Part shown: positions 41,982-46,614 of the stretch, in pieces
Numbering within the stretch: the first letter of the stretch is position 1
How the letters are laid out: every line of letters begins with the position of its first letter
Program-made: the position numbers and the translations under genes
The notes under the pieces: generated by a model
The model's database searches: none
What the model was told of the DNA's origin: nothing
What the model saw: only the letters and a program-made list of their open reading frames with translations
DNA from: Chitinophagaceae bacterium
Lineage (GTDB): Bacteria; Bacteroidota; Bacteroidia; Chitinophagales; Chitinophagaceae
NCBI GenBank assembly: GCA_947450165.1
Contig: CANFUJ010000003.1
Span: forward strand, 1-51,585
Reading direction: 5' to 3'
DNA: 51,585 bases

Positions 41982-42455
41982 TTAAGATTTTGGTGCAACA
42001 GGAACATTTCTTGAGAATCCTTCTTCCAAAGAAATAAATGTTTCCGTTCTTTCTATTCCTTTAATTTTTTGAAGTTCGTCGTGTAATACAAAACGAAGTT
42101 GAGTGATGTCTTTACAAACAATTTCTAAAAACATGCTGTAATTACCAGTAATATAGTTGAGACGAATGATTTCGGGAATGCGCATTAGTTCTTTAGCAAC
42201 ATTATCATAAAGAGAACTTTTTTCTAAGTAAATACCAACGAAAGCTGTAATATCGTAACCGAGTAATTTCAGATCTACGTTTAAGCGTGTGCCTTTTACA
42301 ATATTGAATTCATGAAGTTTTTTAATTCTAACGTGAATGGTACCACCACTAACGAATAGTTTTTTGCCCAACTCTGCATAAGAGATTTCGGCGTTTTCCA
42401 TCATTGCTTCAATGATTTGCAAATCTAATTTGTCAAGATTTAATTTAGCAGCCAT
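41982..42455 (-). CDS. Lrp/AsnC-family transcriptional regulator
   Basis: This 157-residue regulator has an N-terminal winged helix-turn-helix (LDLQIIEAMMENAEISYAELGKKLFVSGGTIHVRIKKL). A C-terminal RAM ligand-binding domain (about 65-150) includes GYDITAFVGIYLEK and NYITGNYSMFLEIVCKD. It usually forms octamers and senses an amino acid or similar ligand. A perfect 14-bp palindrome lies 36 bp upstream of the ATG and may be its own operator. The gene is convergent with the GT2 gene. Confidence 0.94.
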   Translation of the reverse strand: MAAKLNLDKLDLQIIEAMMENAEISYAELGKKLFVSGGTIHVRIKKLHEFNIVKGTRLNVDLKLLGYDITAFVGIYLEKSSLYDNVAKELMRIPEIIRLNYITGNYSMFLEIVCKDITQLRFVLHDELQKIKGIERTETFISLEEGFSRNVPVAPKS

Positions 42456-42490
42456 TTTTTTTCTGATTTTAATTTATTTTTAATAATCGG

Positions 42491-42504
42491 TACAAATATT
42501 TGTA
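42491..42504. promoter_or_regulatory. 14-bp palindrome upstream of the Lrp gene, candidate operator
   Basis: TACAAATATTTGTA is a perfect palindrome ending 36 bp upstream of the Lrp start. Position and symmetry suit an autoregulatory site, since Lrp proteins commonly bind such AT-rich dyads. No binding data exist here. Confidence 0.4.
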
Positions 42505-42589
42505 TTATTTCTATAATTTCAAAATTTTTGTTGAATTATTTTCAACTTTAGGTCAAATTAATTAGTTTTAAGTATTAGAAGTTCTAAAA

Positions 42590-42606
42590 CGATATTGTAA
42601 ATATCG
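42590..42606. promoter_or_regulatory. palindrome just upstream of the tRNA-like RNA
   Basis: CGATATT and AATATCG flank a gta spacer. The element ends 8 bp before the 5' end of the tRNA-like fold, in the place of a core promoter. It could control that RNA or be a second Lrp site. This is inferred from position only. Confidence 0.35.
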
Positions 42607-42613
42607 GAAAAAA

Positions 42614-42760
42614 TGTGGGGTGATGAAATTTTTGGCAGACATGCCCTCTTGTCTCGGGGGTGAGGAAAAAAGGATAAACTCGGCCCAAATGGTTTATGAA
42701 AGATAAATCATTTGGGTTATGGCTAACTACCTCGTGAAGGTTCGAACCCTTCCCCTACAG
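42614..42760 (+). tRNA. tRNA-like RNA: class II fold, GUC anticodon, giant variable region
   Basis: A full cloverleaf can be drawn. The acceptor is TGTGGGG (42614-42620) with CCCTACA (42753-42759), seven pairs with one G-U. The D stem is ATG/CAT (42623-42625, 42640-42642) with a Leu-like loop ending TTGGCAGA. The anticodon stem is CCCTC/GGGGG, and loop TTGTCTC puts GTC at 42651-42653. The T arm is GAAGG-TTCGAAC-CCTTC (42736-42752). The discriminator is G42760 and CCA is not encoded. The variable region (42661-42735) is about 75 nt, with GAGG/CCTC at its base and a 14-bp hairpin (42684-42716). Class II tRNAs are normally Leu, Ser or Tyr, yet GUC is an Asp anticodon. It may be a noncanonical tRNA, a decoy-like RNA or a relic. 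Confidence 0.6.
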
Positions 42761-42777
42761 CGGTTTTTATTTTACAG

Positions 42778-42807
42778 AAACCCTTGCAGCGTGAGTTGTG
42801 AGGGTTT
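42778..42807 (+). terminator. intrinsic terminator after the tRNA-like RNA
   Basis: AAACCCT and AGGGTTT arms (16-nt loop) are followed by a run of T at 42805-42810. It lies 18 bp after the discriminator base, which suggests the RNA is transcribed as its own unit. Confidence 0.7.
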
Positions 42808-42810
42808 TTT

Positions 42811-45119: not shown

Positions 45120-46568
45120 TTACATACAACCCTTAGCAACAATGTTTTTTACCTCGCTAATCGGTATTCTTTCCTGAGTCATCGTATCTCTATATCTTAT
45201 GGTAACCGTATTGTCTTCTTTGGTTTGATGATCAATGGTTACACAGAAAGGCGTTCCAATGGCATCCATTCTTCTGTAGCGCTTTCCAATGGCATCTTTC
45301 TCTTCGTAGAAACAATGGAAATGTGGTTTACATTCATTTAATAATTCCGTTGCAATCTCTGGCAAGCCATCTTTTTTTAATAATGGAAGAATTGCCAATT
45401 TTGTAGGTGCAATCTTTGCTGGAATTTTCAACACCACACGACTATCTTCTGTACCATCTTCTTTTGTCCATTTTTCTTCCTGATAAGCCAATGATATAAC
45501 GGTGAGGAATAAACGATCTAATCCAACAGATGTTTCCACCACAAAAGGCGTATAGTTGCCGTATGCTTTTCCTTCTGCATTTAAATCATTATCGAAATAT
45601 TGAATTTTCTTTTTGCTGTATTTAGCATGTTGACTCAAATCAAAATCGGTGCGACTATGTATCCCTTCCAATTCTTTCCAACCAAATGGAAATTCAAATT
45701 CAATATCCAATGCAGCATCAGCGTAATGCGCTAATTTTACATGGTCGTGAAAACGTAGTTTTTCTGTTGGAATGCCAATACTTTCATGCCATTTTTTGCG
45801 GGCATCTTTCCAATAATTATACCATTCCATTTGTGTACCAGGGCGAACAAAGAACTGCATTTCCATTTGTTCAAATTCACGCATGCGGAATATAAATTGA
45901 CGTGCTACAATTTCATTTCTAAACGCTTTCCCTGTTTGTGCAATACCAAAAGGAATTTTCATTCTTCCCGTTTTTTGCACATTTAGAAAGTTTACAAAAA
46001 TACCTTGCGCCGTTTCTGGTCTTAAATAAATGGTATCCGCTTCTTCGGCTACGCTACCTATTTGTGTGCTAAACATCAAGTTAAACTGACGAACATCTGT
46101 CCAGTTGCAAGTTTTGCTGATGTTACATTTTATTTTATTGGTTTCGATTAATGTTTTTAATCCAGCTAAATCATCTGCAGCTAATAATCTATCCATTTCG
46201 GCAATCATGGCTTCTCCAGCTTCTTTTTCTAAAGTTGCTACATGTGCTTCAATCAAATGGTCAACACGATATCTTTTGTTACTGTCTTTATTGTCAATCA
46301 TCGGATCGCTGAAATTATCCACGTGTCCGCTGGCTTTCCACACGGTAGGATGCATAAAAATAGCTGCGTCAATGCCTACGATATTGTCGTGCATTTGCGT
46401 CATGCTTTTCCACCATTCGTCACGAAGATTCTTTTTTAACTGCGCACCCATTTGTCCGTAATCATACACAGCACTTAAGCCATCATATAATTCAGAGGAT
46501 TGAAAAATATAGCCATACTCTTTACAATGAGAGATGATTTCTTGGAAGTTGTTTATTTCGTTTGCCAT
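45120..46568 (-). CDS. glyS: glycine--tRNA ligase (alpha2 type)
   Basis: This single-chain class II glycyl-tRNA synthetase is of the dimeric type. The ATG at 46568 (MANEINNFQEIISHCKEYGY) is preferred over the one at 46595, which adds nine residues without homology. The protein is then 482 residues. Motif regions include RPETAQGIFVNFLN, FRNEIVARQFIFRMREFEQMEMQFF (motif 2) and VETSVGLDRLFLTV (motif 3). The C-terminal anticodon-binding domain starts near LKIPAKIAPTKLAILPL. A TATCTTTG box lies 7-14 bp upstream of the ATG, so the leader must be very short. Confidence 0.96.
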   Translation of the reverse strand: MANEINNFQEIISHCKEYGYIFQSSELYDGLSAVYDYGQMGAQLKKNLRDEWWKSMTQMHDNIVGIDAAIFMHPTVWKASGHVDNFSDPMIDNKDSNKRYRVDHLIEAHVATLEKEAGEAMIAEMDRLLAADDLAGLKTLIETNKIKCNISKTCNWTDVRQFNLMFSTQIGSVAEEADTIYLRPETAQGIFVNFLNVQKTGRMKIPFGIAQTGKAFRNEIVARQFIFRMREFEQMEMQFFVRPGTQMEWYNYWKDARKKWHESIGIPTEKLRFHDHVKLAHYADAALDIEFEFPFGWKELEGIHSRTDFDLSQHAKYSKKKIQYFDNDLNAEGKAYGNYTPFVVETSVGLDRLFLTVISLAYQEEKWTKEDGTEDSRVVLKIPAKIAPTKLAILPLLKKDGLPEIATELLNECKPHFHCFYEEKDAIGKRYRRMDAIGTPFCVTIDHQTKEDNTVTIRYRDTMTQERIPISEVKNIVAKGCM

Positions 46569-46574
46569 AGGTCG

Positions 46575-46582
46575 CAAAGATA
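46575..46582 (-). promoter_or_regulatory. candidate -7 box (TATCTTTG) for glyS
   Basis: The minus strand reads TATCTTTG followed by CG, 7 bp before the ATG. It matches TAnnTTTG exactly and would give an almost leaderless mRNA. The -33 element is poor. Confidence 0.4.
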
Positions 46583-46614
46583 GAAAATGTAGCATTTAAA
46601 AGTGTAAAATATTG

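Follow-up and report, generated by a model that had tools for sequence, protein, structure and literature searches.

We found that a 51,585-nucleotide stretch of DNA from a Chitinophagaceae bacterium (the window, i.e. the whole stretch that was analysed) encodes, at positions 42614..42760 of the + strand, a tRNA-like RNA that is a member of a real, conserved class II family. The family is apparently an undescribed RNA family; a literature search, at the level of search results, returned no such tRNA-like RNA in Bacteroidota and no dedicated asparagine-synthesis RNA. We consider it likely that this RNA, tRNA-like but non-decoding, is dedicated to serving as a scaffold for tRNA-dependent asparagine synthesis: it would probably stand outside the reading of the genetic code and act as a carrier on which asparagine is made.

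The RNA spans nucleotides 1-73, as delimited by the drawn stems, covariation and a covariance model. The 5' strand of its 7-bp acceptor stem (42614..42620) pairs with 42753-42759, pair 1-72 being T-A in the DNA (U1-A72) and pair 2-71 G-C, and the discriminator is G73. The D arm (42623..42642; 3-bp stem, 42623-42625/42640-42642) carries a Leu-like GGCAGAC loop, and this region finds its closest likeness in the tRNA-Leu of the same genome. The anticodon arm (42644..42660; 5-bp stem) exposes the loop TTGTCTC at 42649-42655, with GTC at 42651-42653, then U37 and C38. A giant variable arm (42662..42733) stands on a covarying 4-bp base stem (42662-42665/42730-42733, GAGG/CCTC), above which lie a second stem with an internal loop (42671..42728; GATAAA at 42673-42678, CTAA at 42723-42726) and an inner hairpin (42682..42718). 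The T arm (42736..42752), defined by the drawn stem and by covariation, has a 5-bp stem and a TTCGAAC loop. A strong hairpin typical of an intrinsic terminator follows at 42776..42809 (z -5.71, reached by 0/200 shuffles), in keeping with the terminator that the earlier note had placed there, and the RNA is probably transcribed. That note had also taken the missing CCA as an oddity: CCA is indeed not encoded, position 74 being the C at 42761, but this is the rule here, as 4 of 28 distinct tRNAs recovered from the genome encode CCA and ARAGORN gives the other 24 without CCA, most often with C74 as the last nucleotide.

We then compared the RNA with homologues found in relatives. In an alignment of 13 of them, the structure drawn from the window pairs in 312/312 cells (100%), both sides have changed at 7/24 pairs, such pairs occurring in all five helices, and the covariation score was reached by 0/500 shuffles, which ignore relatedness. 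The tRNA arms read from the single sequence in the earlier note are thus all borne out, and their stems covary in relatives. Energy folding is weaker support than covariation: the window RNA folds with z -2.47 and 2/200 shuffles fold equally well. The acceptor and T stems are recovered both by the minimum-energy fold of the window RNA and by RNAalifold, which additionally recovers the variable-arm stems; the D arm is not given by energy folding alone, both programs pairing the D/anticodon region otherwise. A chance fold is ruled out by the pairing and covariation over the 13 homologues, and a relic, which the earlier note had considered, by this covariation together with conservation across the host order and presence in phage contigs.

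The covariance model built from these 13 homologues scores the window RNA at 152.4 bits, the window being itself one of the 13 model-building sequences. Standard annotation by ARAGORN in default mode and by Rfam at gathering score misses the family. ARAGORN gave no match in the window and, in default mode, none in 24 relative loci; Rfam (release 15) at gathering score gave 0 matches in the window and 0 in 20 loci whose members are mostly compact; and a search of the whole genome with RF00005 returned 31 tRNAs, the window RNA not among them. Weak Rfam matches to the window, such as PyrR (E 0.43), lie below gathering and were discarded. The intron mode of ARAGORN called 2/24 relative loci with differing isotypes, and at a lowered score threshold the isotypes disagree as well; a tRNA with an intron was rejected on account of both. 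A tmRNA was likewise rejected, the ARAGORN tmRNA search calling 0/24 loci.

For counts over the whole family, we examined 185 distinct host members, after setting aside L135, L136, L024 and L141; the last but one (L024:1509-1646) has an intact 3' half and an unrecognisable 5' half and is probably a relic. The members measure 108-211 nt, with a median of 147. Their variable arm consists of the 4-bp stem, a second stem of 3 bp, the internal loop GAYAAA/CTAA and then lineage-specific hairpins; a GGGTYGACCAC-like motif is additionally present in many of the long forms. The second stem is paired in 320/351 cells (over the 117/185 members in which the two flanking motifs could be located; shuffles give a mean of 252 and a maximum of 267) and is also recovered by RNAalifold, with only 2 bp in the window. 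The window RNA is a compact form, most same-genus relatives having a larger variable region with a longer domain in place of the inner hairpin. In L147, L142, L324, L342 and others, the D loop holds an extra ~10-30 nt, some of which seem hairpin-capable. Several lineages carry two to three RNA copies per locus (L019:1507-1896, L121, L113, L184, L291), the second copy of L019 having A73 and an altered acceptor.

The distribution of the family was determined in three genome samples. In a sample of the host order, a strong match to the covariance model (E <= 1e-18) is present in 238/396 genomes; this family cut was used because ordinary tRNA-like matches of ~77-85 nt also pass E 0.001, at which 274/396 genomes match, and the 36/274 below the cut were treated as weak and not counted (one is G018, whose real RNA is truncated by the end of a contig). 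The class sample gave 67/395 genomes at E <= 3.6e-18 and 171/395 at E 0.001. The phylum sample gave 41/395 at E <= 1e-12; three of them lie outside the class, and one match (G472) is a doubtful one of 77 nt. Note that up to 7 candidates were scored per genome in samples of more than 40 genomes, so that the sets without the RNA may include misses. With 80 of 120 host stretches searched with the model, among the matches listed, the confirmed named hosts include Chitinophaga, Dyadobacter, Spirosoma, Cyclobacterium, Algoriphagus and Pedobacter. A strong member also lies in a contig labelled Ignavibacteriales (L169:3131-3241), by transfer or mis-binning.

The RNA occurs in viral contigs too. The core pattern of the family matches at least 120 viral stretches, and the RNA is present in 80/80 viral loci among the matches listed, two of them cut by contig ends. 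Two RNA-bearing contigs are marked as phage by terminase and portal genes. Scanning 18 RNA-bearing viral loci by ARAGORN, we found 1-26 tRNA or tmRNA genes in 12 and none in 6; three of the 18 have a tmRNA (L352, L377 and L397, the first and last of which also hold >20 tRNA genes). Against cultured phages, the window RNA gave weak partial matches only, none covering 80% of the query, and three phage members and one array element gave no match.

The conserved positions of the family include several that matter to two enzymes. Bacterial Asp identity, as summarised in PMC9976931, is made of G73, G10, G34, U35, C36 and C38, with G2-C71 as a minor element; U1-A72 confers amidation of Asp-tRNA-Asn by bacterial GatCAB, and tRNA-Asp is shielded from amidation by G1-C72 and U20a (PMC9976931, PMC4206432). 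Some of our alignments come from pattern searches, those fixing GTCTCG (A4 and A5) or the acceptor tail (A6) being biased at these places, and the anticodon loop was counted on an alignment of model-found loci picked among the matches listed (A3), which is free of pattern bias. Among these 95 distinct host members, again among the matches listed, the anticodon is GTC in 92, U35 and C36 are present in all 95 and C38 in 94, in line with the noncanonical class II tRNA-like RNA with a GUC anticodon that the earlier note had described. G73 is found in 184/185 distinct host members, G2-C71 in 185/185 and U1-A72 in 184/185, while acceptor pairs 4-7 vary, mostly with compensation, in host and phage members alike. 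Among the phage matches listed, 67/68 distinct full-length members have U1-A72, the acceptor being free in the search, and 67/68 have G2-C71. When the search was made by a T-arm pattern, which puts no constraint on the anticodon (80/91 viral stretches, among the matches listed; 72 matches at E 1e-10, 58 distinct, 52 of at least 90 nt counted), GTC is found in 52/52 phage members and C38 in 48/52; the 6 shorter matches dropped have GTC (one), GTT (four) and CTTAGGA (one). Two of the four with a GTT anticodon, 76-nt phage tRNA-like genes (L470:2191-2266, L509:7632-7707), share the acceptor ends of the family, TGT...ACAGC.

The family carries the U1-A72 pair of a GatCAB substrate in place of the G1-C72 of tRNA-Asp, which is absent from it, as is G10: most members have A or T at position 10, and the window RNA has A. 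In the set of 28 distinct tRNAs from this genome, which contains no tRNA-Gln or tRNA-Ile, tRNA-Asn alone has U1-A72, and C38 is limited to tRNA-Asp and tRNA-Glu. In family f70, two members (L150 and L134, in genomes G599 and G773, which have no GlnRS match) carry a CUC anticodon, which suggests, from the sequence, that the cargo there is Glu rather than Asp. Elsewhere, one more diverged member (L131) has a TTC anticodon; these members may mark a switch from Asp to Glu. A further f70 locus (L135) holds a 77-nt form without a variable arm.

In a decoding tRNA, U33 and a purine at position 37 are expected. Position 33 of the family is T in 153, G in 21 and C in 10 host members, the window having U33, and position 37 is T in 173/184, with a purine in 5/184 and not in the window; these loop counts are over 184 since the loop of one of the 185 members (L224) was not aligned to 7 nt. 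Among the 95 model-found host members from the matches listed, the figures are T 80/95 at position 33 and T 85/95 at position 37, and the 52 phage members, among the matches listed, have T 29, C 21 and A 2 at position 33. Judging by these sequences, the decoding features are not kept, which agrees with the non-translational role that the earlier note had raised as an alternative. We infer that U33 and purine 37 were dropped, and the AspRS and GatCAB signals kept, because an Asn-charged RNA would misread Asp codons.

The loss of constraint at positions 33 and 37 also counts against the reading that the earlier note had put first, a class II suppressor-type tRNA charged through its variable arm by SerRS (or LeuRS) and inserting Ser or Leu at Asp codons. 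SerRS charging would fit G73 and the large variable arm, and GUC is listed among the commoner anticodons of 8/4 allo-tRNAs (PMC7609411), but the acceptor/T stems here are 7/5, not 8/4 or 9/3, so that the RNA is not built like an allo-tRNA, and the family has A72 where bacterial Ser identity includes C72 (PMC9976931). G73 counts against LeuRS charging, as bacterial Leu identity needs A73 (same source). A suppressor tRNA would moreover leave the near-invariant GUC-N-C loop, the near-invariant U1-A72 and the link to GatB described below unexplained, and we regard it as extremely improbable.

If the RNA is a substrate of GatCAB, the two should occur in the same genomes. We scored GatCAB by GatB alone, first in 55 hand-chosen genomes, in which absence of the RNA means no match at E <= 1e-12, some having weaker matches; all these co-occurrence counts ignore kinship. 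GatB is present in 27/28 genomes with the RNA vs 1/27 without. AsnRS is found in 54/55 and GlnRS in 52/55 of these genomes, and with both present tRNA-Asn and tRNA-Gln should not need GatCAB. Restricted to GlnRS-bearing genomes, the contrast is GatB in 25/26 with the RNA vs 0/26 without; the GlnRS match is absent from G434, the lone genome with GatB and no RNA, and from the RNA-bearing G599 and G773. In the order sample of 396 genomes, GatB is present in 230/238 with the RNA vs 63/158 without a strong RNA match; of these 63, 22 match the RNA weakly and 41 not at all. The 8 RNA-bearing genomes without GatB are all in at least 237 contigs and include the window genome, in which neither GatB nor AsnRS was found; we read this as a gap, though an unproven one, because that assembly is in 237 contigs and its glnS match begins at the very end of a contig. 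For the host family, the figures are GatB in 109/111 genomes with the RNA vs 4/22 without, one of the four being G018 with its RNA cut at a contig end. Within each of four genera (g1, g20, g24, g43), some species have both RNA and GatB and others have neither; in one g43 genome (G391), GatB is accompanied by no more than a weak match to the RNA.

This joint presence or absence within single genera bears on the classical route, in which a non-discriminating AspRS and GatCAB would make asparagine on tRNA-Asn while the RNA, with a separate role, merely shared the same lineages. The tRNA-Asn of this genome also has U1-A72, and Bdellovibrio sets the precedent of a non-discriminating AspRS acting on tRNA-Asn (PMC4206432); a discriminating AspRS, for its part, is reported to disfavour tRNA-Asn 500-2,250-fold (PMC4206432). 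Against this stands, besides the joint pattern, the combination of an Asp anticodon and the GatCAB pair on one RNA, for which there is no obvious other use, and we hold the classical route to be very unlikely. It is rather unlikely, in turn, that the RNA is a regulatory decoy or sensor of AspRS/GatCAB, controlling these enzymes or AsnC without supplying asparagine. A divergent AsnC gene and conserved variable-arm motifs would suit a sensor, as would phage contigs that carry the RNA with or without tRNA genes nearby, but among the chosen genomes with AsnRS and GlnRS, GatB is found only where the RNA is, and a decoy leaves the retention of the enzyme unexplained. A dedicated scaffold for asparagine synthesis would account for it.

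The genomic neighbourhood points to asparagine as well. On the - strand, at 41982..42455, lies a divergent Lrp/AsnC-family regulator of 157 aa, identified as AsnC-like by its NCBIfam match: the best model is AsnC, with 153 bits vs 53 for Lrp, the curated AsnC cut-off of 227 not being reached. Such a regulator is the nearest upstream gene, in divergent orientation, at 105/166 loci, at a median distance of 152 nt over the 105; of the 114 loci for which 800 nt or more of upstream sequence is available, 82 have the divergent AsnC-like gene and 32 do not, some loci in both sets being the same genome place twice (e.g. L117/L120, L109/L140). In 27 chosen host-family genomes (hand-picked, 32 searched), an AsnC orthologue is present in 15/15 with the RNA, adjoining it in 14, vs 4/12 without (Fisher p 2e-4, kinship ignored), and these 4 keep AsnC without the RNA nearby. 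In E. coli, AsnC is described as activating asnA, an activation that asparagine lowers or abolishes.

The AsnC-like gene and the RNA share the intergenic region 42456..42613 (+ strand), for which promoter patterns were counted over relatives. The motif TTG-N17..24-TAnnTTTG, the Bacteroidota promoter consensus, occurs on the RNA strand in 37/102 distinct intergenic regions (mononucleotide-shuffle mean 2.6, maximum 6) and on the AsnC strand in 6/102; the window's own region, 42456-42613, shows no clear match to it. The next commonest neighbour family, which we read as an acyl-CoA-ligase-like gene, lies beside 16/166 loci. A glycine-tRNA ligase gene lies ~2.4 kb away from the RNA in the window (45120-46595); with two genes per side examined, glycine-tRNA ligase is not among the 14 commonest neighbour families.

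The genomes with the RNA also differ in their asparagine synthetases. AsnA or an E. coli-type AsnB is found in 1/28 chosen genomes with the RNA vs 19/27 without, the type being read from the match pattern: E. coli-type AsnB was called from split matches in 15 genomes without the RNA, of which G576 splits differently, and the typing was verified on 2 proteins from genomes without the RNA and 5 from genomes with it. In two RNA-bearing genomes (G199, G207), neither AsnA nor AsnB was matched at the limits applied. Asparagine-synthase-like proteins of TIGR01536 occur in most RNA-bearing genomes of the 55, and the RNA therefore need not be the sole asparagine source there.

The neighbouring genes and the asparagine synthetases weigh on a further alternative, in which the Asn-charged RNA would serve as a donor for peptide, lipid or cell-envelope modification and not for free asparagine. 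Dedicated non-coding tRNAs for envelope work exist, which favours a donor. AsnA or E. coli-type AsnB is nevertheless found mainly where the RNA is absent, and the AsnC-like gene is the sole widely shared neighbour, the acyl-CoA-ligase-like gene reaching only the 16/166 loci given above. We therefore think a donor role unlikely and retain asparagine synthesis as the preferred function.

For that function, we propose the following mechanism. An ordinary, discriminating AspRS would read GUC, C38, G2-C71 and G73 and load Asp on the RNA; GatCAB would read U1-A72 and amidate Asp to Asn in place; and asparagine, released by simple hydrolysis or with help, would then feed AsnRS. The giant variable arm likely bars the RNA from the ribosome or helps enzyme docking. 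The divergent AsnC-like regulator may tune the RNA to asparagine, as E. coli AsnC does with asparagine synthetase A.

The closest known system is tRNA-dependent asparagine synthesis by a non-discriminating AspRS and GatCAB on tRNA-Asn, with which the proposed route would share Asp loading on a U1-A72/G73 RNA, GatCAB and AsnRS-bearing organisms. It would differ in that the RNA is separate, has an Asp anticodon, could be served by a discriminating AspRS and is seemingly excluded from decoding. With bacterial tRNA-Asp, the RNA has in common the GUC anticodon, C38, G73 and G2-C71, and departs from it by U1-A72 instead of G1-C72, the lack of a fixed G10, U37, a free position 33, a Leu-like D arm and the giant variable arm. 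It shares a long variable arm and an odd anticodon with allo-tRNAs and class II tRNAs (Ser, Leu, Tyr, Sec), but has 7/5 stems, an internal loop and a variable arm of up to >100 nt, and lacks the A73 of Leu and the C72 of Ser. Like tmRNA, beside which it lies in some phage contigs, it is tRNA-like and non-standard; unlike tmRNA, it has an anticodon arm and no recognisable tag reading frame. For the pseudo-tRNA tRNAOther of Bacillus cereus, we know of no link to GatCAB or AsnC. That RNA, which belongs to a different clade, is also tRNA-like and is said to be non-functional in translation (PMC3399842).

Phage contigs hold a second kind of tRNA-derived element. Six copies in L366 (5129-8251) and four in L341 (4212-5100 and 11993-12117), as well as elements in L380, L385, L389 and L335, have constant tRNA-Leu-like halves, AGTCAGG...ACAGGTTCGAATCCTGTCCTGACTAC, around a strongly variable middle at the expected place of the anticodon arm; the pattern matches at least 120 viral stretches, and one match falls inside an ARAGORN tRNA-Pro (L341:4017-4096). 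From their sequences, these elements resemble tRNA scaffolds on which RNA payloads of varying sequence are displayed.

Taking the family as a whole, we think it fairly probable, with somewhat less assurance than for the scaffold function itself, that asparagine is made, in a large part of Bacteroidota and by many phages, on an AsnC-regulated RNA cofactor via a discriminating AspRS and GatCAB, replacing or complementing asparagine synthetase; the structure of this cofactor would bar it from the ribosome and so protect the genetic code. If true, this would explain why GatCAB is retained in many bacteria that have both AsnRS and GlnRS. The question was raised in 2014, with a count of 18 genera that combine AsnRS, GlnRS and GatCAB while lacking an asparagine synthetase, the Bacteroidetes being one of the clades concerned, and the answer offered there was a non-discriminating AspRS acting on tRNA-Asn (PMC4206432). 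With a dedicated RNA, an ordinary AspRS would be enough to solve this problem. Phages would then be predicted to bring their own asparagine-making RNA, and the family would represent an RNA devoted to amino-acid biosynthesis rather than to decoding, a living aminoacyl-RNA metabolic cofactor.
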